Shown: positions 33,369 through 49,326 of the stretch, piece after piece
Position numbering within the stretch: the first letter of the stretch is position 1
How the letters are laid out: every line of letters starts with the position of its first letter
Assembly: GCF_004366075.1 (NCBI RefSeq)
Contig: NZ_SODU01000002.1
Coordinates: 1,798,758 to 1,862,757, forward strand
Length of the DNA stretch: 64,000 nt
Source: Kribbella pratensis
GTDB taxonomy: Bacteria > Actinomycetota > Actinomycetes > Propionibacteriales > Kribbellaceae
Reading direction: 5' to 3'
Program-made: the position numbers and the translations under genes
The notes under the pieces: generated by a model
What the model saw: only the letters and a program-made list of their open reading frames with translations
The model's database searches: none
Told to the model about the DNA's origin: nothing

Positions 33369-33640
33369 GTGTGAGCGTTCGCGTCCCGACCATCCTGCGG
33401 CCCTACACCCAGGGCGTGTCCGAGGTGTCCGCCGAGGGCGCGACCCTGACCGAGGTGCTCGACTCGCTCGACGCGTCGTACCCGGGGATCAAGGGCCGCG
33501 TACTGGACGACTCGGGCGAGCTGCGCCGGTTCGTGAACGTGTACGTCGACGACGACGACGTACGCTTCGCCGACGGCCTGCAGACCACGATCAAGGACGG
33601 CGGCCAGGTCTCCATCATCCCGGCGGTCGCGGGCGGCTGA
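33365..33640 (+). CDS. ThiS/MoaD-like sulfur carrier protein (MetO-like)
   Basis: 91 residues from GTG 33365, overlapping the enzyme upstream by 4 bp (GTGA). The beta-grasp pattern VSVRVPTILRPYTQG, VNVYVDDDDVR and the end VSIIPAVAGG, with the terminal Gly-Gly, are the marks of a protein whose C-terminus is adenylated by a MoeB/ThiF enzyme and then carries sulfide as a thiocarboxylate. Related to CysO, which feeds CysM in mycobacteria. Inferred partner: the ThrC-fold enzyme. The activating enzyme is not in the window. Confidence 0.9.
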   Translation: MSVSVRVPTILRPYTQGVSEVSAEGATLTEVLDSLDASYPGIKGRVLDDSGELRRFVNVYVDDDDVRFADGLQTTIKDGGQVSIIPAVAGG

Positions 33641-33653
33641 TTGAGCTGCTCTG

Positions 33654-34670
33654 ATGCGTGCGGTTGTCATCTCGGAGTACGGCGTACTTCCTGAGATTCG
33701 TGAGGTTGCGGAGCCTGCGGTTGCGGACGGCTCGGTTGTCCTGAAGGTTGAGGCGACCGGGCTGTGCCGTAGTGACTGGCATGGCTGGATGGGGCATGAC
33801 TCCGACATCGTGCTGCCGCATGTGCCGGGCCATGAGCTCGCCGGCACGATCGCCGCGGTCGGGGCGGGTGTGAGCGGGTGGGCGGTCGGGGATCGGGTCA
33901 CGACGCCATTCATCTGCGCGTGCGGTGCATGCGAGCAGTGCCTCGAGGGCAACCAGCAGGTGTGCCCCAACCAGCTGCAGCCTGGGTTCAACTACTGGGG
34001 TTCGTTCGCCGAGTACGTCGCTGTGCCGTACGCCGCTGTGAACCTGGTGCGACTGCCCGACGACATGGATTTCGCGACCGCCGCGGGTCTGGGGTGCCGC
34101 TTTGCCACGTCGTTCCGCGCCGTCCATCAGGTAGGACAGGTCGTCGCCGGTGAACGCGTGGCCGTCTTCGGATGCGGTGGCGTCGGCCTGTCAGCGGTCA
34201 TGATCGCGACGGCTCTCGGCGCCGAGGTCATCGCCATCGACACCAACCCCGAAGCGCTGCACTTAGCCCGCGAGTACGGCGCCGCACACACCATCCACGC
34301 GTCTGCAGACACCGTTGCGCAGATCCACGACCTGGGCGGTGCTCATGTCACCATCGACGCGCTCGGCTCCAACGACGTCGTCCAGCAAGCCCTGCAAGCT
34401 CTCCGCCCACGAGGCCGTCACGTCCAGATCGGCCTCCTGCCCCAAGGCGTGCAGCTGGACGTCGGCCGCCTGATCGGCCAGGAACTCACCTGGCTCGGCA
34501 GCCACGGCATGCCCGCCCACGCCTACCCCGAAATGCTCGCCCTAGTTGCCACCGGCAACCTCAACCCCCAGCACCTCATCACCCGCACCATCCCCCTCGA
34601 ACAAACCCCCGCCGCCCTGGCAGCCCTCACCAACGGCACCCCCGCCGGCGTCACGATCATCACTCCCTAG
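33654..34670 (+). CDS. Zinc-dependent alcohol dehydrogenase family protein
   Basis: 338 residues. Catalytic zinc ligands: Cys38 (GLCRSDWHG), His60-Glu61 (VPGHE) and a later Cys (GLGCRFATS). Structural zinc: the CACGACEQC...QVC cluster (about 87-104). NAD(P) binding: VAVFGCGGVGLSAV. Known: medium-chain dehydrogenases oxidise alcohols or reduce aldehydes. It follows the sulfur-carrier gene by 13 bp in the same direction and may be read through, though its role in sulfur metabolism is not obvious. Confidence 0.92.
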   Translation: MRAVVISEYGVLPEIREVAEPAVADGSVVLKVEATGLCRSDWHGWMGHDSDIVLPHVPGHELAGTIAAVGAGVSGWAVGDRVTTPFICACGACEQCLEGNQQVCPNQLQPGFNYWGSFAEYVAVPYAAVNLVRLPDDMDFATAAGLGCRFATSFRAVHQVGQVVAGERVAVFGCGGVGLSAVMIATALGAEVIAIDTNPEALHLAREYGAAHTIHASADTVAQIHDLGGAHVTIDALGSNDVVQQALQALRPRGRHVQIGLLPQGVQLDVGRLIGQELTWLGSHGMPAHAYPEMLALVATGNLNPQHLITRTIPLEQTPAALAALTNGTPAGVTIITP

Positions 34671-34732
34671 CCGGTCGCTCTGGACGTCGTCATCGCCCGG
34701 ATACGACGATCGGTTCCCCGGCCGAGGAGGCG

Positions 34733-35539
34733 ATGGACCTGATGTCTGCAGCGCGATCCGAGCTCACCCACCTCGCAGATGTCCGCTACGCTCGCCCGAA
34801 CGGCATCGACCTCTGCCTCGACGTACTAGGTCCGGCACCGCTGCCCACCACCCCGCTCCCGACCGTCGTACGAATCGACGGATGCCCGGGTTGGGGACCG
34901 GGTGATCGCTCGTCCGCCCTGCTGCCGTTCGCGAATCCCGCCCTCGTGCGAGCAGGCTTCCTGACCGTTGCCATCTCCGTCCGTCACAGCGGGCAGGCGA
35001 TCTTCCCCGCGCAACTGCACGACGTACAGGCCGCCCTGGACTGGCTGCGCCGCAACCCGCTCGGCCTCCCTATCGATCCTGATCGCATCGGCATCTGGGG
35101 ACAGTCCGCCGGGGGACACCTCGCAGCCCTCGCCGGCCTCGCGTCAGCTCGCCGTACGGCGGTGGCGAACGTCCACGCAGTAGTGACGGTCAGCGGTCCG
35201 AGCGATCTCCTCCGTCCCGGCGGCGCCCTGCGGATCGACCGCCCTTCGCCGGTCACCGCGTTGGTCGGCGGCGACGTGTCCACGCATCGCGAACAGTTGC
35301 GCGCGGCAAGTCCGATCGCGCACGTCAGCGCCGGCGCACCGCCCTTCCTGATCATCCACGGCACCGCGGACGAGACGGTTCCGTACGAGCAGGCCGAACG
35401 ACTTCATCACGCACTGCTCGCAGTCGGCGCGCAGTCGCGTCTCTTGGCGATCGACGGCGGGCGTCACGATCTCCGCGACGACTGGTATGCCGTGGCGGAC
35501 GAGGCCGCACGCTTCTTTGCGGAACATTTTCGGCAGTAG
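34733..35539 (+). CDS. Alpha/beta-hydrolase fold esterase (HSL/BD-FAE-like)
   Basis: 268 residues from ATG 34733, with GAGGAGG two bases upstream; the longer frame is a shadow of the dehydrogenase. The nucleophile elbow is IWGQSAGGHLAAL (about 122-134), the Asp is in IIHGTADETVPY and the His in GGRHDLRDDW. A PTVVRIDGCPGW oxyanion loop replaces the usual HGG. Known: this group hydrolyses short esters or N-formylkynurenine. A perfect inverted repeat overlaps the stop codon and probably ends transcription. Confidence 0.87.
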   Translation: MDLMSAARSELTHLADVRYARPNGIDLCLDVLGPAPLPTTPLPTVVRIDGCPGWGPGDRSSALLPFANPALVRAGFLTVAISVRHSGQAIFPAQLHDVQAALDWLRRNPLGLPIDPDRIGIWGQSAGGHLAALAGLASARRTAVANVHAVVTVSGPSDLLRPGGALRIDRPSPVTALVGGDVSTHREQLRAASPIAHVSAGAPPFLIIHGTADETVPYEQAERLHHALLAVGAQSRLLAIDGGRHDLRDDWYAVADEAARFFAEHFRQ

Positions 35540-35561
35540 GTGCAAACTTCTTTCCGCAAAG
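35515..35561. terminator. Inverted repeat between convergent hydrolase and regulator genes
   Basis: CTTTGCGGAA (35515-35524) and TTCCGCAAAG (35552-35561) are perfect ten-base arms with a 27-base loop spanning the hydrolase stop codon. Probably a bidirectional terminator, since the regulator on the other strand ends at 35570. Confidence 0.65.
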
Positions 35562-35569
35562 CCCGGCTG

Positions 35570-36793
35570 CTACAGGCGGATCAGGTAGACGGTGGGTGGG
35601 CGGCCGGTTCGGCCGTGTTGTTGGGTGCCGGTGGGGGCTGCTAGGCCGGCTCGTTCGAGGCGTTTGAGGACTCGGCGGGCGGTGCGGAGCTGGACGGCTA
35701 GGTGGTCGGCTACGTCTTGGGTGGTGAGGCCGTCGGGGAGGGTGGCGGTGAGTTCGCGCATCCGGGCGAGGGTCTGGGTGTTGAGGCCGACCCGGCGGGC
35801 CAGCAGCGGGAGGCTTTCGGTGCCGCGGGCGCCGGACGGCTGGTCGCCGGAGGGCTCGATGACGATCTCGACGTCGTCGGACATCGAGACGACACCGGCG
35901 ACGGAGCCGATCGAGGCGGCGCGGCCCACGGCGCGACGGGCGAGCGCCTCGGCTTCGGCCGCCGTACGGCCGACGCCGAAACCGACGTACGCCGTGCTGT
36001 GCCGGGCCGCCAGGTGGTCGAGCAGAGGCATCCGGGAGAACTGTTCGGTCGCCTGCTCCAGGAGCCCGCGGGTGGTGACGACGAGGTGCCGGCCGTCGGG
36101 GAGGGCGGCGAGGCTGCCGCCGAGCGTGATGAGGTCCGCGGCGAGCGCGTCGTCCGGTTCGGGCAGGTCGATGACGCCGAGCGCGACCTGGGCGTCGCCG
36201 ACGTGCTGGCCGGTCGTGGTGAGGATCAGGGCCTGCAGGGTGGAGCGGATCGAGTACCGCGACGGCGCGAGCCGGACCGACGGCATCTCGTTCTCGATCA
36301 GGTGGAACGCCGAACCCAGGCAGCTGATCGCGACCTTCGTGTCGTGCTTCTCGCGGGCCGTGCGGTGGAACGCGACGATGTCGTCCGAGGTCAGGCCCGG
36401 CCGGTACGGCAGCACCTGGATCTGGTCCGTCGGCAGCTTCGCCTCGATCAGGGTCTCCAGCACCTCGGACCGCCGCAGCGTGTCGATCGAGAACTGGGTG
36501 ACGTTGTGCCCGAGGCGCAGGAGTTCGACGAGGGCGCGCAGCAGGGTCGCCCCGTCGTACGAGACGTACATCGCCGGCCGGTCGATCACCCCGGCCTCGG
36601 TGGCGATCGTGTACGGGACGACGCCGGTGAACAGGAAGGCGTCCACGTCCGAGTGCGACTGCTCGACGAGTTCGACGGCTTCGGTCTCGTGCCGGTACGC
36701 CAGCGGCACGAGCACGGTCCCGCTCGGGGCGCCGACCACCGTCACCCGCTGGACCAGGTCCTCGGGACCGACCACGCCGACCGCAAGCGCCAT
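35570..36793 (-). CDS. Transcriptional regulator with PrpR_N-like sensor, GGDEF-like middle and C-terminal winged helix
   Basis: 407 residues from ATG 36793 (MALAVGVVGPEDLV); the frame to 36862 adds unrelated residues. N-terminal half: a periplasmic-binding-like or PrpR_N-like sensor (DAFLFTGVVPYTIA). Middle (about 265-325): AYVGFGVGRTAAEAEALARRAV, like the degenerate GGDEF/GTP-cyclohydrolase-III fold. C-terminus: LTTQDVADHLAVQLRTARRVLKRLERAGL winged helix, then a Gly/Arg-rich tail. A 22-bp palindrome upstream matches three others in this region, so this protein is the best candidate to bind them. Unusual domain mix; not a named family to me. Confidence 0.78.
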   Translation of the reverse strand: MALAVGVVGPEDLVQRVTVVGAPSGTVLVPLAYRHETEAVELVEQSHSDVDAFLFTGVVPYTIATEAGVIDRPAMYVSYDGATLLRALVELLRLGHNVTQFSIDTLRRSEVLETLIEAKLPTDQIQVLPYRPGLTSDDIVAFHRTAREKHDTKVAISCLGSAFHLIENEMPSVRLAPSRYSIRSTLQALILTTTGQHVGDAQVALGVIDLPEPDDALAADLITLGGSLAALPDGRHLVVTTRGLLEQATEQFSRMPLLDHLAARHSTAYVGFGVGRTAAEAEALARRAVGRAASIGSVAGVVSMSDDVEIVIEPSGDQPSGARGTESLPLLARRVGLNTQTLARMRELTATLPDGLTTQDVADHLAVQLRTARRVLKRLERAGLAAPTGTQQHGRTGRPPTVYLIRL

Positions 36794-36916
36794 CAGTCGA
36801 CCCCGCCGACAGCTGAGCAGATCCTCACGCAGTCCTCCGACGACTTCTGGTCTGGCCCTCAAGTCGCAGAATAGCGCAGCGGGCTCCGAGATCTTGACGT
36901 TCAGGCCTTGCTCTCC

Positions 36917-36938
36917 TAGTTTCGGTCAAGACCACAAC
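36917..36938. promoter_or_regulatory. Regulon palindrome, site 1 (regulator promoter)
   Basis: The arms AGTTTCGGTC and GACCACAACT surround AA. The shared core is CGGTC-NN-GACC. It lies 124 bp upstream of the regulator start, consistent with self-control. Confidence 0.75.
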
Positions 36939-37017
36939 TACCGCCACCCCCTGAGGCGGATCCAGGGAGCGTCGGTGTGGTGGAGCGAAGGAGGGAGCGC
37001 GCCACCTCACTGCACTT

Positions 37018-37968
37018 TTACCGATGCAGTTCCTCAAGGCAGCGGATGACCAGTTCGCGCTCGCCCGGCGGCAGATCCGGCCCGTACGGATCGTGCGCGG
37101 CCGTGGCCGCTATCAGGCCTTCCCACTCGGCCGCCCAGAGCATCCGCTGGACGTAGCCCTCGATCGGCGCGTAGAACGTCGCCGCCGCGAACCGGTCCAG
37201 CCGCTCTGACGCGGTCAGGAATTCCGAGTGGTCGCCGGCCGTCCAGGCTCGCAGTACGGCGGCCGACAACTCGACCTGCGCCGACGCGATCCCGACGAGC
37301 GCCGTGTCCGCGCCCCACATGAACGACGGCCCGTACATCCGGTCCTCGCCGGTGATCAGCAGCTTTCCGCTGTCGCGCCCGGCCCAGATCGCGTCCTGGC
37401 ACCCGATCGCACGGTCCAGCGTCGCCGTCTTCACGCCGAGCATCGCGTCCAGCGCGAGCAAGTCGCGGATCAACGAGGGTGGATACGGGTACCCACCGGC
37501 CTCGCCGTGCAGGTAGAAGCCGACCAGCGGCAGCCCGCTCTCGGCCGCCACCCGCTCGTGCAACGCGACCGCCTGCGCGTGCCCGTCCGGCAGTTCGCCT
37601 AGCGCTGCCAGCGGATAGACCATGACCGCATCAGCCCCACCGGCCGCAGCGGCCCGCGCCATCTCCACGGTCGCGTCCGCGGCCTCCTCCAGCGTCCGCG
37701 CCGCGGAAGACTTCGGTACGCCGACACCCGCGACGATCGGTACGTCGGTAGCGGACCGCCACGTCTCGAGCACCTTCACGCGATCGCCCGGTGACAGGTA
37801 GAGCCCCCGCCCGGTGTGCGCCCACACCGCGACGCCGCCGACAGTGTGCTTCGTGAGCGAGACGGCGTACGCGGACAAGGCGTCGTACGCGACGATGCCG
37901 TCGGAGTCCATCGGGGTGACGACCGCGGGGAGCAGTGTGCCGCGGAGTCTTTCGACCAGTGGATGCAT
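37018..37968 (-). CDS. DapA/DHDPS-family aldolase or lyase
   Basis: 316 residues from ATG 37968 with GAGGT upstream; the larger frame is a shadow of the gene upstream. A TIM barrel with the Schiff-base Lys in MLGVKTATLDR (about 170) and the GGVAVWAHTGRGLYLS glycine/Thr region. True dihydrodipicolinate synthases have a different TGEG motif, so this is more likely a keto-acid or hydroxy-keto-acid lyase. It follows the enolase-superfamily gene by 11 bp. Known: pairs of a sugar-acid dehydratase and a DHDPS-family enzyme break down sugar acids. Inferred: the second step of the pathway. Confidence 0.87.
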   Translation of the reverse strand: MHPLVERLRGTLLPAVVTPMDSDGIVAYDALSAYAVSLTKHTVGGVAVWAHTGRGLYLSPGDRVKVLETWRSATDVPIVAGVGVPKSSAARTLEEAADATVEMARAAAAGGADAVMVYPLAALGELPDGHAQAVALHERVAAESGLPLVGFYLHGEAGGYPYPPSLIRDLLALDAMLGVKTATLDRAIGCQDAIWAGRDSGKLLITGEDRMYGPSFMWGADTALVGIASAQVELSAAVLRAWTAGDHSEFLTASERLDRFAAATFYAPIEGYVQRMLWAAEWEGLIAATAAHDPYGPDLPPGERELVIRCLEELHR

Positions 37969-37979
37969 ACGATGACCTC

Positions 37980-39110
37980 TCAGACGTCGTGCCCGAGACC
38001 GGGGCGCTTCGGTACGTCGATCCAGCCGTCGCAATCGGCGAACACGGTCGGGGCCAGCGGGTCCTCGTCGACCATCAACGGCCCCACCAGGTCCGCCGCG
38101 ACGGTCGCTCCGGGTACGGCGGCGGCCAGGTGTACGGCGGCCAGCGTCGCGACACCCAGCTCTGGCATCGACCCTACCTTCACCGCGAGCCCCGCGGCCT
38201 CGGCCACGGCGGCGATCTGCAGCGCGCGGTGGAGCCCGCCGACCTTGAGGATCTTGATGTTCAGTACGTCGGCCGCACCGCGCCGTGCGATCTCCAGGGC
38301 GTCGTGCAGCGAGTGCATGCTCTCGTCGACCATCACGCGGACGTCGAGGCGGTCCCGCAGCCGGACGAGCCCGGTCAGGTCCCAGCGCGGAAGGGGCTGC
38401 TCGAGGAGGGTGAGGCCCGCCGCGCTCATCTTGGCGAGGTACGGGAGGGCTGTGGTGGCGTCGTACCCCTCGTTGGCGTCCAGGCACAGCTCCGCGTCGG
38501 CGGGGATCGCGGCGCGGACCGCCCGGATCAGTTCGAGGTCCTTCGCCGGGTCGTGACCGCCCTTGACCTTCAGGTGCATGAACCCGCGGTCGGCGTACTC
38601 CGCGGCCTCGGCGGCCATCTCGTCGAGGGTCCCGAGGCCGACCACCCACGTGGTCTGCACGCGGTCTCGGACGCTGCCGCCGAGCAGGGCGTGGACGGGC
38701 CAGCCGCTGATCCGCCCGGCGAGGTCGAACAGGGCGATGTCGAGGCCGGCCTTGGCGACCTGCTGGCCGCGCAGTACGCCGTCCATGGTGACGTGAGCGC
38801 CCGCGCGGTCGAGCGGGTCGCGGCCGATCAGGGCCGGCGCGAGGTGCTCCTCGATCGCCGCCTGGACGCCCGCCAGCGTCTCGCCGGTGTACGCCGTCAT
38901 CGGCGAGGTCTCGCCGATCCCGACGTCGCCGTCGGCCGTGTGCACCTCGACGACCAGGCTGATCAACTCGTTGCTCACACCGCTGCTGATCTGGAACGGC
39001 CGGCGGTACGGCGCGCTCACCACGCGGGTCTTGATCGCACTGATCGGCGCGGCCCCGAAGGCCTCCGATCCCCCACCCGGCAACCCGGCCGGTTCTGCTG
39101 CAAGACTCAT
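37980..39110 (-). CDS. Enolase-superfamily enzyme, muconate-lactonising/epimerase subgroup
   Basis: 376 residues. Metal ligands: LCLDANEGY (Asp), LLEQPL (Glu) and MVDESMHS (Asp). The base is on KVK (HLKVKGG, about 165) with a second Lys in IKILKVGG on the other side, the MLE subgroup pattern. Cap-domain loop FQISSGVSNEL near residue 40. Known: the subgroup includes muconate lactonising enzymes, dipeptide epimerases and N-acylamino acid racemases; sugar-acid dehydratases usually carry a His-Asp dyad instead. Inferred: the first reaction in the regulon, substrate unknown. Palindrome site 2 is upstream. Confidence 0.88.
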   Translation of the reverse strand: MSLAAEPAGLPGGGSEAFGAAPISAIKTRVVSAPYRRPFQISSGVSNELISLVVEVHTADGDVGIGETSPMTAYTGETLAGVQAAIEEHLAPALIGRDPLDRAGAHVTMDGVLRGQQVAKAGLDIALFDLAGRISGWPVHALLGGSVRDRVQTTWVVGLGTLDEMAAEAAEYADRGFMHLKVKGGHDPAKDLELIRAVRAAIPADAELCLDANEGYDATTALPYLAKMSAAGLTLLEQPLPRWDLTGLVRLRDRLDVRVMVDESMHSLHDALEIARRGAADVLNIKILKVGGLHRALQIAAVAEAAGLAVKVGSMPELGVATLAAVHLAAAVPGATVAADLVGPLMVDEDPLAPTVFADCDGWIDVPKRPGLGHDV

Positions 39111-39145
39111 AACCGGCTCCTAGGGTCGCAATCTGGGCGGAAAGC

Positions 39146-39167
39146 ATTTACGGTCAAGACCGTAAAT
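39146..39167. promoter_or_regulatory. Regulon palindrome, site 2 (divergent enolase/LLM promoter)
   Basis: Perfect: ATTTACGGTC and GACCGTAAAT around AA. It lies 36 bp from the minus-strand enzyme and 39 bp from the plus-strand oxidoreductase, so it can control both. Confidence 0.85.
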
Positions 39168-39205
39168 ACCCTGAGCGCTCCCTGTCAACGGAAGGTGGCA
39201 CCCCG

Positions 39206-40168
39206 ATGCGGCTGGGTCTCTATCTGAACCTCTACGGCACCCCGGACGAGCGGCCCCAACTGGCCGACGCCGTCGAGCAGGCGCGGCTGGCCGAGCAGGC
39301 CGGATTCGAGTGGGTCGTGCTGGGCGAGCGGCACCTGCACCGGCCCGGGTACCACGAGATCCTGACGTCGATGACCTGGCTGGCCGCGCACACGTCGCGG
39401 ATCGGGATCGCGACAGCCGGGATCGTGGCGCCGCTGTACGACCCCGTCGTACTCGCCGAGACGCTCGCGCACATCGACGTACTGTCGGGTGGGCGGCTGA
39501 CAGCGGGGTTCGTGCTCGGGTACCGGCCGGAGGAGTTCGCGCTGTACGGCGTGACGCAGGCGGAGCGGGTCGCACGGTTCGAGGAAGGGCTGGAGATCCT
39601 CACCCGGTTGTGGACGTCCGAGGAGGTCACGTACGACGGCAAATTCACGTCCATCCAGGAGGCGTACCTGTCGCCCCGCCCGGTACAGACGCCGCGGCCG
39701 CGGTTGTGGAACGGCGGACGGGTGTCGGCGGTGCTGGAGCGTACGGCGCGGATGTGCGACGGGTGGACGACGTCGTTCAACGAACACGACGCAGACCTGC
39801 CGGCGAAGATCGCCGAGTATCTGTCGTACCCCCAAGGCGCCGGATCGCTTGGCCAGGAGGTCATCCTCTGCCGCGAGGGCTACTGCGCCCCCACGACCCA
39901 GGACGCGCGGCAGGCACTGGAGGAGCCGCTACGCGACCTGTACGACGCCTACACCGGCTGGAAGCGTACGTCGACGGACGCCGCCCGCTACACCCAAGGC
40001 TGGGACGAGATCGCCGACCGCAGCGTCATAGGCTCCCCAGCCCAATGCGCCGACCGCCTCGCCCACTACGAGGAGATGGGCGCCGACGGCATCATCCTCC
40101 GCATCCAACCCCCCGGCATGCCCCAATCCGAAGCCCTCAAGGCGATCGAGGCGTTCGGCAACCTGTAG
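39206..40168 (+). CDS. LLM-class flavin-dependent oxidoreductase (luciferase-like)
   Basis: 320 residues. The barrel start MRLGLYLNLYGT, GFEWVVLGERHL, SRIGIATAGIVAPLYDPVVLAE and GRLTAGFVLGYRPEEF blocks define the bacterial luciferase family. Known: members use FMN or F420 to oxidise or mono-oxygenate small molecules; the cofactor cannot be chosen from sequence here. It is divergent from the enolase-superfamily gene across a regulon palindrome, so it belongs to the same pathway. Inferred: an oxidative step on the imported substrate. Confidence 0.9.
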   Translation: MRLGLYLNLYGTPDERPQLADAVEQARLAEQAGFEWVVLGERHLHRPGYHEILTSMTWLAAHTSRIGIATAGIVAPLYDPVVLAETLAHIDVLSGGRLTAGFVLGYRPEEFALYGVTQAERVARFEEGLEILTRLWTSEEVTYDGKFTSIQEAYLSPRPVQTPRPRLWNGGRVSAVLERTARMCDGWTTSFNEHDADLPAKIAEYLSYPQGAGSLGQEVILCREGYCAPTTQDARQALEEPLRDLYDAYTGWKRTSTDAARYTQGWDEIADRSVIGSPAQCADRLAHYEEMGADGIILRIQPPGMPQSEALKAIEAFGNL

Positions 40169-40620
40169 AAGACCCCCGCGTGCTACGCAGCCAGTCCTCG
40201 TCGCTGCGCTCCTCGTCCCGGCCGCTACGCGCGCTCCCATCCGCCCCCGGCTGAGCGCCGGACTTCTAGCTGCCGGCTAACGCCGGCGAATTGCGGGCTG
40301 CCGCCCGCGAGTAACTGCCTGACGGGATGTGGTTATCCGGGACGTGACGTGGTGACAGGGGGACCGCGGTCTACGCGGCGACCCCGAATCTCGCCCTGGG
40401 GTAACTGGGAACACCTGCCGGGGACCGGGAACAGGCTATTGCCTATGCCCAGTCCCAGGGAGGTGTTGCAAGTGTGTTCGGCGACGCCGTTCGCGTACGT
40501 GCGGTGACTGCCTCACATGCCGCGCCGCATAGATGGGGTCGCTGTCGTAGCGCGCGTGCGGGTGGTCGCCGCGGCGCTAGCCCGCAACTCGCCGGCGCCT
40601 GCGGAGCACGCGTGGGCTGT
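40169..40620. other. 452-bp non-coding stretch between LLM and ABC permease genes
   Basis: The start holds the double hairpin element (40272-40308). CCCTGGG and CCCAGGG stretches and AACACCT/AGGTGTT arms (40410-40416; 40461-40467) follow. I see no gene, riboswitch or tRNA. The region between 40310 and 40600 has no clear feature. Confidence 0.55.
40272..40308. repeat. Double tetraloop hairpin element (copy A)
   Basis: GCCGGC-TAAC-GCCGGC then GAATT then GCGGGC-TGCC-GCCCGC. Both stems are perfect six-base pairs with four-base loops. The same plan recurs at 55057-55091 and in shorter form at 47665-47678. Probably a terminator-like or REP-like repeat family; here it follows the LLM gene. Confidence 0.65.
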
Positions 40621-41493
40621 TCAGGCCTTCAGCCCCGACATGGCGATGGAGTCGGTCAGGTAGCGCTGGAGGAGGCCGAAGACGAGGAGGCTGGGGACCA
40701 CCGTGATGGTGGCGCCGGCCATGAGTTGGTTGATGGGGACGGCTTGGCCTTGGAGGGTGGCCAGGCCGACGGTGAGGGTCTGCATCTTGCCGGACTGGCC
40801 GATGACGAGCGGCCACAGGAAGTCGTTCCAGTGCCAGAGGAAGACGAAGATGCCCAGTGTCGCCAGCACCGGGCGGACCAGGGGCAGGACGATCATCGTG
40901 AAGATCCGCCACTCGGGCGCACCGTCGATCTCGGCGGCCTCGAACAGCTCGTCGGGCAGTTGCATGATGAACTGGCGCATCAGGAACACCGCCTGCGAGT
41001 TCGCCAGCGTCGGCACGATCAGGCCCCAGTAGCTGTCCACCCAGTCCAGCTTCGCGACCAGGATGTACGACGGGATCAGCGTCGCCTGGAACGGGACCAT
41101 CAGCGTGGCCAGGAACGCCCAGAACATGATCTCCCGGCCGGGGAACTTCTTCTTCGCGAACGCGTACCCGGCCATCGACGCGAACAGCAGCACGCACGCC
41201 ACGGACACCAGCGAGTAGAGCAGCGAGTTCACCGTCCACCGCGGGATGTCCGAGCTGGACAGCACCTTCGAGAAGTTCTCCAGCGTGAAGTTCGCCGGGT
41301 TCAGCGCGTCCGGGAACGTCCGCCCGCTCGGCGGCGCGAACGCGACCAGCACCATCGCCGCGAACGGCACGATCGTCACGATCGCCGTCAGCGCCAGCAA
41401 GGTCGGCAACGTCAGCCGGCCCCCCGTACGCCGTCCTGCCGTCGGTGCCTCCACTACCGGCCGGACCGGCGGGCGGTCGAGTACCTGAGCCAT
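40621..41493 (-). CDS. Sugar ABC transporter permease (MalG-type)
   Basis: 290 residues, six transmembrane helices. The EAA loop EAAEIDGAPEWRIFTMIVLPLVRP (about 195-218) that contacts the ATPase is intact. Start ATG 41493 follows the stop of the partner permease directly. Known: with the MalF-type partner it forms the membrane channel of a carbohydrate importer. No ATPase gene is in the operon, so a shared MsiK-type ATPase elsewhere is expected. Confidence 0.94.
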   Translation of the reverse strand: MAQVLDRPPVRPVVEAPTAGRRTGGRLTLPTLLALTAIVTIVPFAAMVLVAFAPPSGRTFPDALNPANFTLENFSKVLSSSDIPRWTVNSLLYSLVSVACVLLFASMAGYAFAKKKFPGREIMFWAFLATLMVPFQATLIPSYILVAKLDWVDSYWGLIVPTLANSQAVFLMRQFIMQLPDELFEAAEIDGAPEWRIFTMIVLPLVRPVLATLGIFVFLWHWNDFLWPLVIGQSGKMQTLTVGLATLQGQAVPINQLMAGATITVVPSLLVFGLLQRYLTDSIAMSGLKA

Positions 41494-42417
41494 CTAGTCG
41501 TCCCTCCCGACGAGCCGGCGCTGTACGAGCGAGACGATCAGCACGATCAGGAACAGCACCAGACCGATCGCGCTGGCGTAACCGAAGTCGAAGTACTTGA
41601 AACCGCTGTCGTACAGGAAGTACACGAGCGAGTAGCTGGACCGCACCGGTCCGCCGCCGGTCATCACGTACATCGCGTCGAAGACCTGGAAGGCGCCGAT
41701 GGTCTCGATCACCAGCACGAAGAACAGCACCGGCCGCAGCTGCGGCAGCGTCACGTACCGGAACCGCTGCCAGGTACTCGCCCCGTCGATCATGGCGGCC
41801 TCGAGGTACGACTTCGGCACCGCCTGCAGACCCGCGAGCAGGATCAGCATCGAGTACCCGAAACCCTTCCACGCCGACGTGACCGCGATCGACGGCAGCA
41901 CGGTGCCTGACTGGCTGAGGAAGTCGATCGGACCGATGCTCACCAGCCCGAGTACGGCGTTCAGCAGCCCGTCCTGCGCGTCGTAGATCCACTTCCAGAT
42001 CACCGCGGCCAGCACGATGCTGGTCACGTACGGCAGGAAGAACACGCCGCGGAAGAAGCCGCGCTTCCACACCACCTGGTGGAGCAGTACGGCGGTTCCG
42101 AGCGACAGCAGGACTGTCAGCGGGACGAAGATCACCGTGTAGGTGATCGTCACCAGCAGCGCCTCGTGGAACACCTTGTCCGACAACAGCCGCGTGTAGT
42201 TGTCGAGCGCGATGAAGTCCCACTTGCCGCTGATCCGGTAGTCGGTCAGCGAGAGGAAGAAGGCCCCGATCGCGGGCAGGAACCGGAACAGCAGGAACAG
42301 CACCAGCATGGGGGCGACGAACAGCAGACCCACCCAGGGTCTGCGCCGCGGCCCACCTCGACGACGGCCGGCCGCGGGTCCCGCCCGACCCGCGACCGTG
42401 TCGGTTGTGTCGGTCAA
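41494..42417 (-). CDS. Sugar ABC transporter permease (MalF/UgpA-type)
   Basis: 307 residues with a Gly/Arg-rich N-terminal tail, then six helices. The EAA loop is EAAMIDGASTWQRFRYVTLPQLRP. Its ATG overlaps the binding-protein stop by four bases (ATGA), and its stop abuts the next permease. Part of the palindrome-controlled regulon; imports the regulon substrate together with the lipoprotein below. Confidence 0.94.
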   Translation of the reverse strand: MTDTTDTVAGRAGPAAGRRRGGPRRRPWVGLLFVAPMLVLFLLFRFLPAIGAFFLSLTDYRISGKWDFIALDNYTRLLSDKVFHEALLVTITYTVIFVPLTVLLSLGTAVLLHQVVWKRGFFRGVFFLPYVTSIVLAAVIWKWIYDAQDGLLNAVLGLVSIGPIDFLSQSGTVLPSIAVTSAWKGFGYSMLILLAGLQAVPKSYLEAAMIDGASTWQRFRYVTLPQLRPVLFFVLVIETIGAFQVFDAMYVMTGGGPVRSSYSLVYFLYDSGFKYFDFGYASAIGLVLFLIVLIVSLVQRRLVGRDD

Positions 42418-43679
42418 CGCTGCCTCGAGAGCAGGTCGTTGGCCTGCTTGGCGGCGTCGTCCAGCGCCTGCTGCGGCTGCTTCTTGCCGGTCAGCACGGC
42501 CTGGATCTCGGTGCTCAGGAACGACATGATCTGCCGCGCCGCCGGGTTCGGCTCACCTGGTACGGCGTACTGCAGCGCGTCGTGGAACTTCGCCGCCATC
42601 GGGTCGGTCGACTCGGACTTGGCGTCGTTGCGCGGCGAGTAGAACCCGGACGCCTTGCTGAGCGCGTCCAGTTGCGCCGGCTGCATCATGAAGGACAGGA
42701 ACTTCTTGGCCCCATCGGTGTTCTCCGAGGCCGCGTTCACGACCAGACCCCCCGGCAGGCCGAAGCCGACCTGCTTCTTGCCGGTCAGCGGTGTACCGAT
42801 CTCGACGTTCGCCGCGCCCCACGTCTTCGCCACCGTTGCGGCGTCGGCCGGCACGCTGGTCATCGCCATCGCGACCTGCCCCTTGCCGAACGGCGAGTCG
42901 GCGACGACGTTGCCCGCGGTGAGCGCGGTCTTCGGGATCGCGCCCTCGTCCCACAGGCTCTTCAGGAAGGTCAGCGCCTCCAGGCCGGGGGCCTGGTTGA
43001 AGCTGACGCTCTTGCCGTCGTCGGCGAACACCTTCCCGCCGGCCTGCCACAGCAGCGGGTAGAAGTTCAGGTTCAGCGTCGCCTCCGGCGAGGCCGAGTA
43101 GTCCAGCGTGGAGAACCCGGCCGCCTTGAGCTTCGGCGCGGCCGCCTTGATCTCGTCCCAGGTCTCCGGCGGCTTGCTGATCCCGGCCTTGGTCAGGACG
43201 GTCTTGTTGTACATCGTCGTCGTGACCGTGTGGTAGATCGGGGCGCCGTACACCTTGCCCTCGACGGTCAGGCCGGGGATCGCGGCCGGCAGGAACTTGT
43301 CCTTCTCCGGGGTGACCACGTCGTCGACCGGCTCCAGCGAGCCGCTCTTCACGTACTGCGGGATCTGGTCCGGGATCATCAGCAGGACGTCCGGACCCTT
43401 CCCGCCGGAGAATGCGGCCGCGACCTTCTCCTCCCGGCCCTTCCACGGCTGGTTCTCCAGCTTCAGGTCGATGCCGGAGTTGGCCGCCTCGAAGTCGGTC
43501 TCGACCTTCTTCCAGTAGGCGTCGCTGGCCGCCTGGTCGGCGATCACCGGGTACATCCAGAGCGTGACGCTCTTCTTGCCGGCGGAGCCGCCGTCGTCGC
43601 CTCCGCCGCACGAGCTGAGCGCAGCGGCGAGAACGAGCGCGGTAAGTGGTGCCGCGATGCGGCGGACGGTCGATTTCAT
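42414..43679 (-). CDS. Extracellular sugar-binding lipoprotein of the ABC importer
   Basis: 421 residues. A signal peptide ends in the lipobox LSSC (Cys24), followed by a Gly-rich linker. The type-1 substrate-binding fold has LWMYPVIADQ, GPDVLLMIPDQIPQYV and PETWDEIKAAAPKL. Known: solute-binding proteins of the carbohydrate cluster deliver oligosaccharides or sugar alcohols to the permeases. First gene of the importer operon, 48 bp downstream of regulon palindrome site 3. Substrate unknown. Confidence 0.95.
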   Translation of the reverse strand: MKSTVRRIAAPLTALVLAAALSSCGGGDDGGSAGKKSVTLWMYPVIADQAASDAYWKKVETDFEAANSGIDLKLENQPWKGREEKVAAAFSGGKGPDVLLMIPDQIPQYVKSGSLEPVDDVVTPEKDKFLPAAIPGLTVEGKVYGAPIYHTVTTTMYNKTVLTKAGISKPPETWDEIKAAAPKLKAAGFSTLDYSASPEATLNLNFYPLLWQAGGKVFADDGKSVSFNQAPGLEALTFLKSLWDEGAIPKTALTAGNVVADSPFGKGQVAMAMTSVPADAATVAKTWGAANVEIGTPLTGKKQVGFGLPGGLVVNAASENTDGAKKFLSFMMQPAQLDALSKASGFYSPRNDAKSESTDPMAAKFHDALQYAVPGEPNPAARQIMSFLSTEIQAVLTGKKQPQQALDDAAKQANDLLSRQR

Positions 43680-43726
43680 CGCACCCCCAGGGTGTCCGGA
43701 AGTCAGGGCCGGAAAGTGTAGAACCG

Positions 43727-43748
43727 AATAACGGTCAGGACCGAAAGT
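43727..43748. promoter_or_regulatory. Regulon palindrome, site 3 (ABC importer promoter)
   Basis: Arms AATAACGGTC and GACCGAAAGT around AG. A second, weaker match (AGTCAGGGCCGGAAAGT, 43701-43717) lies beside it, closer to the gene, and may be an extra half-strength site. Confidence 0.8.
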
Positions 43749-43769
43749 AGCTGGGGTGAATTTCGGCTG

Positions 43770-45785
43770 TCAACGGCTGATATCAATCCGGAACAGCTCG
43801 GAGCCGCTCGTCATCAGCAGTTGGTGATCCCCGCGGACGCCGAGCCGCCGGTGGGCGTGCGCGACGAACAGCGTCGGGACGGCCTTCGCCCCCGGCGCGA
43901 TCCGGTAGATCTTGTTCAGGTCGATGCTCACGTAAACGGCCTCCGGCGTGGCCACGATGTCGCCGCTGGAGGTCGTTGTCCCGAGCGTGAAGGACTTCTT
44001 CAGCTTGCCGGTGTCCGGCGCCACCGCGAACACGGTCTTCCCGGCCACGCCCCACAGCAGGCCGTCCGGCCCCATCGTGACCGAGGACACCGTTGCGGCC
44101 TTCGGCACCGGCACGGTCTCCCAGAGTTTCTTCTTCTTGGCCACGTCCCACGCGAACACTGTGCCCGCTTCCCGGGTCGGCGGCGTGGTGGCCAGGCCGC
44201 CGACGATCGACGTACCGCCGTACACGATCCCGCAGTGCGAGGTGAGGCCGAAGACAGACTCGTCCTGGACGACGTTGCGGTACTTCTCCGCGGTGTTCGT
44301 CGCCGGGTCGTAGATCACCAGCGCGCCGCCGAGCCGGTCGCCGTCCGGGACGGTGCCGACCGCGATCTTGCCGTTCACCTCGGTCAGCGCGCGGGCGCGG
44401 GTCTGCAGGAGATCGGGCTTCAGGTTGAGCAGCTGCTTCGGGTTGTCCGGCGTACCGGGCGGTCCGGGGGAGTACTCCGGGCTGCTCCAGGGCTTCGTGG
44501 TGTCGTAGGAGTAGAGGCGGGCCTCCGGATAGGCGCCGATCCAGACGGTGCCGTCCGAGCCCTCCATCAGGGCCTCGACCTGGGAGAACCGGTTGAACTT
44601 CGCCGCACCCGTGGTCGGGTTGACCACGGACACGCCGCCGTTCAGGAAGCCGCCGGCGTAGATGTTGTCCTTGCCGCCCGCGACGGACAGGATCTCGATC
44701 GGCTCCCGCCGGACCTTGGTGGTGAAGATCTCGGACTTGCCGGTCTGCGGGTTGTACCGGAACTCCTCGCCGCGCCACAGGGTGCCGACGACGCTGGTGC
44801 CCGGGTAGTCGGGGAGGTTCAGGTCGGCGTACCCGATCGAGCGGGCGTTCTGGATCCGGCCGGTGAACATCAGGCCGGTGCCGGTCAGGGTCTTGGTGGC
44901 CGGGTCGTACTTCTTCAGTTCGCTGCTCTGGATCAGGTACAGCGAGCCGTCCGCGCCGATCGGGGAGATGTCCAGGCCGTGCGCGTTCGGGATCTCGTCG
45001 ACCCAGGTGCGACTGGCGATGTCCCAGACGTACAGCGGGCCGGGGAACGCGGTGCTGATCCGCACATAGACGCGGCCGCCGCGGGCGTTCAGGTCGTAGA
45101 CGACCTTGTCGGACGGGTCGCCGAGACCGGGTGGCGACGGCAGTTCGGTGATCGCTCCGCTGGTGGCGTCGATCTCCATGATGTGCGCGTCGGGCATCGT
45201 GCCGGCGTACACCTTGCCGCCCGCGTAGTCGATGCTCTTGACGTACGTCTGGCCCGCGAGGACGGTGCCGTAGTCGCGGATCGCGCCGGTCTGGTCGTCG
45301 TACCGGAACACCTTGCCGTTCGGGAACGTGCCGCCGTACACGTTGCCCTGGTCGTCGGTGGTGATCCGCCAGATGAAGGACTCGGACGCGATCGGCCGGC
45401 CGAGGTCCTCGACGCTGCCGCCCGGCCGCAGCCGGTACAGGTGGCCGTTGTTGTACGTGCCGACGTAGATCGTGCCGTTTGGCGTCGCGGCGACCGCGTA
45501 GCTGCCGTCCGCGCCGGGCAGCGCCGCGGAGAGCAGGCTGTCGCCGGTGGCCGGGTCGATGGCGTTCAGGTACGCCGGACTTCCGGTGGACACGTTCCAG
45601 ATCGCGGTCTTGCCGTTCGGGCCGGGCGCGACGGTGCCGCCGATGAGCAGTACGTCGGACAGCGGCGTACCGAGTGAGGTGACTGTGCCGACCGGTGGTT
45701 GCTGACCGGCCTGCGCCGGGCTGGTCAGGGTTGTGCCGAGCAGAGCGACGAGAGCCATTGCGAGAAGGGAGCGGACTGATCGCAT
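43770..45785 (-). CDS. Large secreted beta-propeller protein (PQQ-like repeats)
   Basis: 671 residues from ATG 45785 with GGAGG seven bases upstream. A signal peptide (about 1-26, cleaving after SPAQA-G) is followed by repeated blades such as TIYVGTYNNGHLYRLRPGG, KVYAGTMPDAHIMEID and NIYAGGFLNGGVSVVNP. There are enough repeats for two propellers. No calcium or PQQ site is clear. Known: such proteins bind or cleave polysaccharides in some bacteria (for example oligogalacturonate lyases share the fold). It shares the palindrome with the importer, so it probably acts on the same external substrate. Confidence 0.82.
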   Translation of the reverse strand: MRSVRSLLAMALVALLGTTLTSPAQAGQQPPVGTVTSLGTPLSDVLLIGGTVAPGPNGKTAIWNVSTGSPAYLNAIDPATGDSLLSAALPGADGSYAVAATPNGTIYVGTYNNGHLYRLRPGGSVEDLGRPIASESFIWRITTDDQGNVYGGTFPNGKVFRYDDQTGAIRDYGTVLAGQTYVKSIDYAGGKVYAGTMPDAHIMEIDATSGAITELPSPPGLGDPSDKVVYDLNARGGRVYVRISTAFPGPLYVWDIASRTWVDEIPNAHGLDISPIGADGSLYLIQSSELKKYDPATKTLTGTGLMFTGRIQNARSIGYADLNLPDYPGTSVVGTLWRGEEFRYNPQTGKSEIFTTKVRREPIEILSVAGGKDNIYAGGFLNGGVSVVNPTTGAAKFNRFSQVEALMEGSDGTVWIGAYPEARLYSYDTTKPWSSPEYSPGPPGTPDNPKQLLNLKPDLLQTRARALTEVNGKIAVGTVPDGDRLGGALVIYDPATNTAEKYRNVVQDESVFGLTSHCGIVYGGTSIVGGLATTPPTREAGTVFAWDVAKKKKLWETVPVPKAATVSSVTMGPDGLLWGVAGKTVFAVAPDTGKLKKSFTLGTTTSSGDIVATPEAVYVSIDLNKIYRIAPGAKAVPTLFVAHAHRRLGVRGDHQLLMTSGSELFRIDISR

Positions 45786-45808
45786 GCGAATTGCCTCCGG
45801 GGTGCCGT

Positions 45809-45830
45809 ATTTACGGTCCTGTCCGAAAGT
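45809..45830. promoter_or_regulatory. Regulon palindrome, site 4 (propeller promoter)
   Basis: Arms ATTTACGGTC and GTCCGAAAGT around CT. A degenerate fifth match (TTACGGCC-AGACCCTAAA, near 45900-45917) overlaps the end of the next gene. Site 4 is 24 bp from the start codon, covering the promoter. Confidence 0.75.
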
Positions 45831-45912
45831 GAAGCTCTCGCGGCGTGGCCAAGTCAACGGCTCGGCACAATTTGCAGCTACTGGCAGCAACGGGTCCGGT
45901 TACGGCCAGACC

Positions 45913-46473
45913 CTAAAGCGGTGGCAGCGCGTCGAGCAGCTTCTGCAGCTTCTCGCGAGTGCGCGCGAAGTAGCTGTTCTCGCGGTGCAGCGCACGGTGG
46001 AACGCGGCGAGTTCGGCCGCCGAGATGGTGTTCGAGAACGTGCTGATCTCGGTCAGGTCGAGCCGCCGGTTGAACAGGTGCACGGTGTCCCGCCAGCGGT
46101 GCATCAGGCCGACGAGCTCTGCGTCGCGGTGCAGGCCGAGCGCGCCGGACACCAGTGCGAGATCGACCGCGGACACCACCAGCCGCGGGTACACCTGCCG
46201 GGTGGTCGGCGCGTCGGGCGAGAACCGCTCGTCGTTCAGCAGCCTGGTGTTCTCGTGCAGCTCGTTCGCGACGGCCCGCAGGACCTCGGTACGGCGTTCC
46301 GCCTCGGCCGTCAGCCGCTCGACGAAGATGCCGGTCAGCCCGGCGACCAGCGTGAGTGAGTTGACCGCCGGCTCCCAGCGCGAGCCCTGCGGCCAGAAGA
46401 ACCACAGGACGCCGAGAACGAAGGCCAGTGCGAGCAGACCGTACGTCACCGCACTGACGACGGTCCGCCTCAT
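45913..46473 (-). CDS. Membrane protein with long cytoplasmic helical domain, unknown
   Basis: 186 residues from ATG 46473. Two hydrophobic helices (about 8-26 and 36-52) are followed by an all-helical region with many Glu/Arg heptads. No family recognised. Its ATG overlaps the stop of the EgtD-like methyltransferase by four bases, so the two proteins are made together and may interact. Confidence 0.7.
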   Translation of the reverse strand: MRRTVVSAVTYGLLALAFVLGVLWFFWPQGSRWEPAVNSLTLVAGLTGIFVERLTAEAERRTEVLRAVANELHENTRLLNDERFSPDAPTTRQVYPRLVVSAVDLALVSGALGLHRDAELVGLMHRWRDTVHLFNRRLDLTEISTFSNTISAAELAAFHRALHRENSYFARTREKLQKLLDALPPL

Positions 46474-47621
46474 GTGGACCAGATGTCGTCGGCGAGGCTG
46501 CGTGCCGTCTCGCCGGCCCCTTCCGGTGCGAGCAGCAGCAGTTCCAGGCCGAACGGGTTCGGGCGGCGGGCGTATCGGAACTGGGACTGGATCGCCTCGA
46601 CCGGCGTCAGCTGACAGGCCTCGGTCAGCCGCTTCAGCCGGGTCGTGGAGTACTTGCGGGTGGTGTAGAGCCGGATCGTGTCGCCGATCGGCAGCACCGC
46701 CTCGGTGTGGTCCGGCAGCTCCATCCGGATCTCTTCGCCGGTGTCGTTCTGCCAGAAGATCTTCACCAGCAGCGCGTCCTCGTCCTCGACCTCGCCGACG
46801 AACTTGACCTGGTCGTTGTTGATCTTGAGGTCGGTGTTGTACCGCAGGGTGCTGGTGACGAACTCCGCGAACGCGCGGGTCTGGTGGTACTCGTCCGCGG
46901 CCGCGTCGGCGGACTCCTGGTCGAGTCGCGTCGTACTGGCCACCTCGAGCAGCAGCCGGTCCTGCGGCCGCAGCACCCGGGTGAGCGTGTCGAGCAGCTC
47001 CTCGTCGCTCTCGAAGTTGGCCAGCGTGTTGCCGGTCAGCGCGAACAGGATCGGCTCGTCGTCGACCAGCCGGGCCAGCATCTGCCCGAGCTCCTCCATG
47101 TTGTCGGCGATCGAGAAGTCGAGCTGCACCGGAAGCACCTGGGAGACCGGGAAGCGGGCGCCGCGGACCGGCTCCAGGGTGCCCATCCGGAGCATCTCCG
47201 AGCTCATGTCCACCGGGATGTAGTACATGTCGGGGTTGTGCCGGCGCATGTCGCTGAGGATCGTCCGGTCCTTGACGCCGGTGCCGACCCCGAGGCTGAC
47301 CAGGTGGAAGCCGCCGTTCTCGACGTGCGGGCGGAGCTTGCGCCAGTGCCGCAGGAACGACTCCGCGCCGGCCTTCATGACCAGGTAGAACGGGTCGTTG
47401 GTGGCGTTCGCCCAGGCGATCGTCGGGCCGATTCCCCAATAGGAGAAGCCCGACGTGATCTGCTTGCCGTCACCGGACGTCGAGAACGGTCCGCGCAGGT
47501 CGCTGGTCAGGGTCGCGAGCTTGTCCGTCTGGTCCTCGCCGACCAGCACCAGCGACCACGCGAAGTCGTCGTCGGCCAGCGCATGCTCGAGCTTCCGGAT
47601 CACGGGTACCGGCTCTGCCAC
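46470..47621 (-). CDS. EgtD-like histidine-type SAM methyltransferase paralog
   Basis: 383 residues. The LVSLGVGTGVKDRTIL SAM motif (about 108-123) and DMSSEMLRMG (about 138) match the histidine-specific methyltransferase domain (EgtD family), with FALTGNTLANFES and a beta-rich C-terminal half. Known: EgtD trimethylates histidine on the way to ergothioneine, with egtA/B/C beside it; none is here. An extra N-terminal 80 residues and a membrane-protein partner are unlike EgtD. Inferred: a paralog with another substrate. Confidence 0.8.
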   Translation of the reverse strand: MAEPVPVIRKLEHALADDDFAWSLVLVGEDQTDKLATLTSDLRGPFSTSGDGKQITSGFSYWGIGPTIAWANATNDPFYLVMKAGAESFLRHWRKLRPHVENGGFHLVSLGVGTGVKDRTILSDMRRHNPDMYYIPVDMSSEMLRMGTLEPVRGARFPVSQVLPVQLDFSIADNMEELGQMLARLVDDEPILFALTGNTLANFESDEELLDTLTRVLRPQDRLLLEVASTTRLDQESADAAADEYHQTRAFAEFVTSTLRYNTDLKINNDQVKFVGEVEDEDALLVKIFWQNDTGEEIRMELPDHTEAVLPIGDTIRLYTTRKYSTTRLKRLTEACQLTPVEAIQSQFRYARRPNPFGLELLLLAPEGAGETARSLADDIWST

Positions 47622-47664
47622 GTCTCACCCCTCACATGATGAGAGGTCAGGTTATCGGTTACCG

Positions 47665-47678
47665 CCGGCTACTGCCGG
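47665..47678. terminator. Hairpin after the cold-shock gene
   Basis: CCGGC-TACT-GCCGG abuts the csp stop at 47679. A smaller CGG-TTA-CCG stem lies next to it, so the pair resembles the double-hairpin elements at 40272 and 55057. Likely ends the csp transcript. Confidence 0.55.
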
Positions 47679-47879
47679 TCAGACAGGGGTGACCGCGTCG
47701 GCCTCGCGGCCCTTGGGTCCGTCGACGATCTGGAACTCGACGTGCTGGCCGTCCTCGAGCGTCTTGTACCCGTCGGAGACGATCTTGCTCCAGTGCACGA
47801 ACACGTCGTCCTGCCCGTCGACGGCCAGAAAACCGTAGCCCTTGTCGGCGTTGAACCACTTCACGGTGCCGCGCACCAT
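47679..47879 (-). CDS. Cold-shock domain protein
   Basis: 66 residues from ATG 47879. RNP-1 is KGYGFLAV and RNP-2 is DVFVHWSKI (variant of VFVHFSAI with Trp for Phe). The start [14 protein letters not shown] is canonical. Known: binds single-stranded RNA/DNA and keeps mRNA unfolded. Monocistronic, with a hairpin at the stop and a divergent-looking AT-poor spacer upstream. Confidence 0.95.
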
Positions 47880-47943
47880 CGAGACTCCTTGACTACGGGA
47901 TCCGCTGCACCCGGATCCCTCCGGTACTTCGCGGTCCACAAGC

Positions 47944-49326
47944 CTAGCCCAGTCCATCGGTCGAGCGGCGCACTGTCCGCGGCACTGTGAACGCGGCGGC
48001 GAGCCCGGTCACGGCGACCGAGATACCGAGCCCGAAGGCCATCCGGTACCCGGTCATCGGCGCGGCCGACGCGATCACCGGCCCGGACAGCGCGAGCCCG
48101 AGCGAGGCCCCGAGTTGCGCGGACGAGTTGAGGACGCCGGCGGCGACACCACGGTCGGTTTCCCGCACGTACGCCGTACCCGCGGTGGTGGACGCGACGG
48201 ACGCCACGCCGAGGCTCACGCCCATGACCCCGAAGCCGCTGATCAGCAGAGTCAGCGGCAGTCCTTCCGCGGGCAGCGGCAGCAGTACGGCGACACCCAC
48301 AGCAACACCCGCGAATCCGGTCAACAGCGCGCGCCGTACGCCGAGCGCGCGGACTGCGGGCGGGCCGAGCAGGGAGCCACCGATCACCGCGACGTTGAAG
48401 ACCGGGAAGATGAGCCCGGCCAGTGCCGGCGGCAGACGCAATGTGTCCTGCACGTACAGCGCGGCGGTCAGCATCGCCGGGCTGGTCGAGGCGGTCAACG
48501 CGGCGGCGGTGAGGTTGCCGCCGAGAACGCCGTGGGTTCGCAGCAGCGAGGGCGGGAGCAGGGGCTGCCGCGAGGTTCGCTCGATGCGCATGAAGCCGAT
48601 CATCAGCAGGGCAGCTGTTGTCAGCGCCGCCCAACCGGGCCACGCGGAGAAATCCCGCGCGATCTCCGACAGGCCGACGGCCGCCAGCACGATGCCGGCC
48701 GTGACGCAGCAGGCGCCCGGGAGATCGAGGGTGACGACGCGAGTCCGGCTCCCGCGGCCTGGGAGGCTGCGGATGCTCCAGAGCAAGGCGATGAAGCCGA
48801 TCGGCACGTTGACGGCGAACACCCAGCGCCAGCCTGCGACCTGGGTGATCAGGCCGCCGAGGAACCAGCCGCTCGCCCCACCCCCGGCGCCCGCTGCCGT
48901 CCACCATCCCAGCGCTCGCCGCGCCGCTTCGGGAGGCAGGGCGTCCGACAACGCGGCCAGCGCCGCGGGAGACAGGAGTGCCGCACCGGCGCCCTGGGCG
49001 AGGCGGGCACCGATCAGAACCGCCGGGGACCAGGCGAGAGCGCAGGCGAGCGAGGCGGCAGAGAACACGACGAGCCCGATCCGGAAGATTCGCCGTGCAC
49101 CGCCGAGGTCGGCGGTCCGGCCACCGAGCACGAGCAGTCCGGCCAGCACGACCGTGTACGCCATGAACACCCAGGGGAGCGTGGCCGCGGCGAAACCCAG
49201 GTCCGCACCGATCGCCGGCAGCGCGGTGGTGACGATGGTCGCGTCCAGCACGACGACGAACTGGGCCACGCAGACGACTGCCCAGCCGGCCGAACGGGTC
49301 GAGATGTTTCCGGTCAAACCGCTCAT
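47944..49326 (-). CDS. MFS transporter, DHA2 (EmrB/QacA) type
   Basis: 460 residues from ATG 49326, about 14 hydrophobic segments. Motifs: [19 protein letters not shown] in helix 1 (motif D1), [17 protein letters not shown] (motif A) and [13 protein letters not shown] (14-helix family mark). Known: proton-driven export of drugs or metabolites. It is divergent from a CGNR regulator, across a short region with repeated 13-mers. Inferred: expression controlled by that regulator. Confidence 0.93.

Follow-up and report, generated by a model that had tools for sequence, protein, structure and literature searches.

A promoter palindrome in a Kribbella nutrient-use cluster is the probable operator of an undescribed actinobacterial repressor family

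Local one-component repressors of the GntR/DasR, MarR and LacI types are the closest described counterparts of the control system analysed here in the soil bacterium Kribbella, where a palindrome, TTTACGGTCnnGACCGTAAA, sits on the promoters of a nutrient-use gene cluster. As in those systems, the regulator gene lies beside catabolic and importer operons, palindromic operators fall on the core promoter and the regulator carries a winged helix. Unlike in the GntR/DasR, MarR and LacI types, the winged helix is C-terminal and stands behind about 340 residues without a Pfam or NCBIfam family. We studied a window of 64,000 nucleotides from Kribbella pratensis together with related loci and whole genomes, and assign a probability of roughly 0.8 to a reading in which an undescribed family of actinobacterial repressors, including the 407-residue protein of the cluster, uses the palindrome as its operator and controls genes for import and breakdown. 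A local repressor with its own operator is a familiar kind of system; the regulator family, the operator and its reach across multiple families are new as far as our searches extend.

The cluster combines catabolic enzymes, an importer and a secreted protein with the regulator gene (Table 1). The best model for the enolase-superfamily enzyme is TIGR02534, of the muconate-cycloisomerase type, with a score below the cut-off, and a sugar acid is accordingly no more than one possible substrate. Structure comparison of the modelled secreted protein with virginiamycin B lyase (2z2n) gives a Z score of 29 and an rmsd of 2.2 over 263 residues, and the two are alike in their seven-bladed fold. The secreted protein differs from virginiamycin B lyase in having two propellers in tandem; identity is 13–14%, and WD40 propellers score almost as high. 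Foldseek searches place mostly eukaryotic WD40 assemblies on top, with large rmsd, and because WD40 proteins fall within 1 Z unit of virginiamycin B lyase we claim no activity for the propeller. Taken together, the propeller, importer and enzymes point to a pathway in which a secreted protein would bind or cleave a substrate, probably a carbohydrate, that is then imported and broken down stepwise.

Table 1 Genes and predicted promoter elements of the Kribbella cluster, with positions in the window
Feature	Position	Strand	Details
Regulator, 407 aa	35570–36793	−	N-terminal and middle regions unannotated; C-terminal winged helix at about residues 343–405
Predicted promoter and operator facing away from the regulator	36894–36934	+	−35 TTGACG 36894–36899; −10 TAGTTT 36917–36922; core 36923–36934; no gene downstream
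DHDPS-family lyase/aldolase	37018–37968	−	PF00701, E 1.6e-15
Enolase-superfamily (MR_MLE) enzyme	37980–39110	−	PF13378, E 3.9e-55
Predicted enolase promoter and operator	39146–39188	−	core 39151–39162; −10 TACGGT 39159–39164; −35 TTGACA 39183–39188; kept across Kribbella
LLM-class flavin/F420 oxidoreductase	39206–40168	+	PF00296, E 3.8e-57; divergent from the enolase gene across the shared operator
Sugar-type ABC importer	40621–43679	−	permeases 40621–41493 and 41494–42417; binding protein 42414–43679; PF00528, PF01547
Predicted importer promoter and operator	43727–43773	−	core 43732–43743; −10 TACTTT 43744–43749; −35 TTGACA 43768–43773
Secreted protein, two tandem seven-bladed propellers, 671 aa	43770–45785	−	AlphaFold2 pLDDT 74.7
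Predicted propeller promoter and operator	45809–45857	−	core 45814–45825; −10 TTCACT 45828–45833; −35 TTGACT 45852–45857
Degenerate second palindrome copy upstream of the propeller promoter	45899–45917	−	aligned to TTAACGGCCGAGGCCGTAAC in L033–L035

The operator consensus is TTWACGGTCNNGACCGTWAA, with two CGGTC half-sites. The exact core CGGTCNNGACCG occupies 39151–39162 and 43732–43743, and cores with one mismatch each lie at 36923–36934 (CGGTCAAGACCA) and 45814–45825 (CGGTCCTGTCCG). These are the four palindromes listed in a first-pass annotation of the DNA, whose starts at 36917, 39146, 43727 and 45809 correspond to the edges of 22-mers, 5–6 nt upstream of the cores. Exact 12-mers occur four times in the window against 0.6 expected, a count that 0 of 100 shuffles reach; those at 50130 and 51368 lie within coding sequence, lack A/T flanks and are absent from the earlier list. 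Throughout the 8.39-Mb genome the bare 12-mer is found at 162 places (13 for a reversed-pattern control), and the core alone is therefore not specific; specificity comes from the flanks. The flanked form CTTWCGGTCNNGACCGWAAR, allowing up to two mismatches, is found at five genome places, three in the cluster and two on contig C3. Sites were located with a symmetric PSSM scan, the consensus of which is blurred by small phase differences, so our conclusions rest on exact patterns.

Counted genome-wide in 15 whole genomes, as the first-pass annotation had suggested doing, the flanked motif is concentrated near the regulator. Exact TWCGGTCNNGACCGWA occurs at 20 sites, one or two per genome, with none for the reversed control; 16 of these, spread over 14 of the 15 genomes, are no more than 25 kb from a regulator homologue (binomial P about 2e-31), and 12 lie within 5 kb. 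In genome G018 the regulator has just a one-mismatch site close by, the two exact sites being distant from it. Palindromes could in principle arise by chance in a G+C-rich genome where CGGTC and GACCG are over-represented, as the 162 bare 12-mers and the two in window coding sequence might suggest, but a flanked form that occurs once or twice per genome, mostly beside the regulator and never in the reversed control, together with a fixed spacing from the −35 box, leaves this explanation a negligible probability. We dropped chance origin, which the flanked-form distribution and the −35 spacing in effect refute.

Regulator homologues with about 40–66% identity are present in several other actinobacterial families, and the operator accompanies them. 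The 20-kb loci of 19 non-Kribbella homologues contain 14 exact TWCGGTCNNGACCGWA sites in 14 loci, where a control with 300 permuted half-sites gives a mean of 0.01 expected; near seven distant relatives (28–37% identity) there is no exact TWCGGTCNNGACCGWA site. Gene content varies by locus and includes a GH38 mannosidase, a peptide-type importer, an SDR-type protein, a DegT aminotransferase and an amidohydrolase. The regulator is the sole gene family common to the palindrome loci; enzymes, importer components and propellers make up the remaining recurrent families, and no second regulator family recurs across these loci. Because the loci were picked by homology to the regulator, the comparison tests distance to this regulator, not every possible regulator. 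The palindrome might instead be bound by a protein whose gene lies elsewhere, such as one of GntR/DasR type, leaving the 407-residue protein a mere neighbour: the core resembles known GntR-type sites, and GntR/DasR-type sites share its GGTCNNGACC core. We consider this very improbable, as the palindrome tracks this regulator over several families despite their varied genes and no other regulator recurs. Cross-family co-occurrence, combined with the promoter anatomy described below, instead gives strong indirect support to the earlier proposal that the adjoining regulator uses the palindrome as its operator and that the palindrome would mark its regulon.

Wherever a Kribbella locus with an orthologous regulator extends over the enolase site, this site reads TTTACGGTCTTGACCGTAAA or is close to it, and the importer, propeller and regulator-side sites are kept in most Kribbella loci covering them. 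Near-identical loci occur in Kribbella soli and other Kribbella; many of these sites are orthologous, so the counts are not all independent. Two weaker copies had also been listed in the cluster. The one near 45900 is degenerate; its orthologue in relatives is a better palindrome, TTAACGGCCGAGGCCGTAAC. That near 43701 is kept solely in close relatives. A record titled Streptomyces sp. SID13031 (L048) also contains a Kribbella-type locus, with a regulator of 86% identity, and sits among Kribbella genomes; its species label may be wrong. In L142 (8877–11323), two regulator homologues stand in tandem with no exact palindrome nearby, and their operator may differ. Distant relatives (28–30% identity) have another palindrome-like stretch, GATTTACGAGTCATTTCCGAACCTG, beside the regulator, at 9288 in L100 and 10719 in L101, which could be the operator of that branch.

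The palindrome extends beyond the cluster, and the statement that only the promoters of this cluster carry it does not hold: conserved copies also stand before paralogue loci and before the genes of a second secreted propeller, a GH123-like protein and one more secreted protein. The site of the second propeller (propeller 2; C3:314535) is kept with zero to two mismatches in 20 of 20 Kribbella genomes. Propeller 2 is absent from all five sampled genomes without regulator homologues at E 1e-20 (hypergeometric P 3.5e-5, uncorrected for kinship), and these five genomes may share ancestry. The GH123-like secreted protein (C3:471605) has a site with a TTGACG box that is kept in four close relatives and is weaker or absent in others, and a secreted protein at C3:132555 is also preceded by a site. 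Similar sites are carried by the locus of paralogue B, which includes propellers (C4:150698), and by a peptide-type importer near paralogue C (C2:1201114). A 2-hydroxyacid dehydrogenase gene that stands alone (C1:2454727; L015 1496–1515) has its start codon inside the palindrome and is homologous to genes found at regulator loci in other genomes. At C1:2371579 (L151 9580–10002), TTGACA, 19 nt and a palindrome are followed by a short secreted reading frame that by eye resembles the start of a propeller and is possibly a truncated gene.

Paralogue B shares 49% identity with the regulator of the window (A), and the recognition helices of A and B, VQLRTARRVLKRLE and IQPRTARRVLNRLE, are nearly the same. 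With near-identical helices and similar operators, the dispersed sites are not assignable to one paralogue and the regulons are inseparable here. That paralogue B, or a joint network of A, B and C, controls the dispersed sites (propeller 2, the GH123-like gene, a gene in L032 and the 2-hydroxyacid dehydrogenase) has a little under an even chance: the B and C loci carry similar operators and the L015 2-hydroxyacid dehydrogenase is 72% identical to a gene in the paralogue B cluster of another Kribbella, but propeller 2 persists, with a recognisable site, in genomes such as G106 that have one strong regulator match.

In the regulator itself, the winged helix is recognised by HTH_23, at 25.3 bits against a curated cut-off of 24.6, and this model matches 14 of 17 homologues at E up to 1. 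No other significant Pfam or NCBIfam family is found in the protein. Recognition-helix residues R-T/S-A-R-R are common to the aligned homologues that have this operator. The first-pass annotation likened the regulator to PrpR, and the general plan, with a sensor region before a DNA-binding C terminus, resembles that of E. coli PrpR and PrpR_N proteins. By contrast, profile comparison with E. coli PrpR reveals no relation (hhalign probability 7.5%), and Pfam scans detect neither a PrpR_N sensor domain nor a sigma-54 AAA domain, so the PrpR label lacks support. Compared with GTP cyclohydrolase III and GGDEF-like proteins, the middle region yields weak, non-significant matches: GTP cyclohydrolase III (2qv6) is matched at E 0.23, below significance, and GTP cyclohydrolase IIa in 3 of 17 members at a best E of 0.013, also sub-threshold. 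An AlphaFold2 model built with 14 Kribbella orthologues has a pLDDT of 41.6 and is unusable for fold. The middle region may possibly be GGDEF/GTP-cyclohydrolase-III-like, for which these matches are a weak hint. Limited searches of open-licence literature yielded nothing on this regulator family and no described use of its operator; as far as our searches reach, a family without a curated name, with a new operator, spans several actinobacterial families.

The position of the palindrome within promoters points to a mode of action. Among 104 unique oriented flanks, TTGAC occurs 51 times; 48 of these occurrences stand 19, 20 or 24 nt upstream of the core (6, 29 and 13, respectively), in counts that include orthologous sites. 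The same geometry of TTGAC and core is found in other families (L083–L089 and L140–L147). With a spacing of 17–18 nt from TTGAC, the −10 box is either TACGGT, which lies within the palindrome, or TACTTT, which lies immediately next to it. A protein bound to a palindrome so placed would block polymerase, and repression is the most likely outcome. The LLM gene, propeller 2 and the L032 gene showed no TTGAC-type −35 box. The regulator might instead bind the palindrome and activate transcription, or act both ways, as the paralogue C site could indicate: it lies just upstream of a TTGACA −35 box and not on the −10 box, a position usual for activators. We think this unlikely given that most palindromes lie on or next to the −10 box, with TTGAC at 19, 20 or 24 nt, a placement in which a bound protein would keep polymerase out. 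Another palindrome, GAGCGCTC, lies at 39173–39180 within the spacer of the enolase promoter; it resembles LacI/CebR-type sites and is kept in close relatives and lost in L043–L048.

The 36923 site departs from its earlier interpretation as part of the regulator's own promoter. Of the 16 Kribbella loci in which the site is kept, all have its promoter (TTGAC, 17–18 nt, TAGTTT or similar) pointing away from the regulator, and no promoter towards the regulator is found on the site in those loci. Autoregulation through this site was dropped on account of this orientation. In L043, L045 and L047, the same promoter precedes a DegT aminotransferase/amidohydrolase-type operon; this operon of basal Kribbella species has been lost in the clade of the window and its promoter kept. 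In the window (36894–37010), the orphan promoter is now directed at the 3′ end of the DHDPS gene. A GC-rich, hairpin-like stretch that is conserved, GGTGTGGTGGAGCG...GCGCGCCACC, separates the two; Rfam gives no match in 33000–48000. A more speculative proposal, to which we give little credence, is that the 407-residue protein stands for a widespread, undescribed family of actinobacterial repressors whose new sensor module reads an unusual metabolite and that, in addition, a short terminated RNA directed against the 3′ end of the DHDPS operon is transcribed from the promoter at 36894–36922.

Under our main reading, a regulator dimer would bind the two CGGTC half-sites through the C-terminal winged helix and, seated on or against the −10 box, would repress by blocking RNA polymerase, and a catabolite sensed by the rest of the regulator would release the repressor. 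The regulator's targets in the cluster would be the enolase/DHDPS operon, to which the divergent LLM gene can probably be added, the ABC importer and the secreted double propeller; alone or jointly with its paralogues, the regulator would also control the dispersed genes elsewhere. A concrete operator offers a direct test for a regulator family that has no curated name and is found in several actinobacterial families. It would also tie scattered genes, including secreted propellers, DHDPS-type lyases, an aminotransferase, a 2-hydroxyacid dehydrogenase and importers, into one pathway, which could be identified by finding the inducer.
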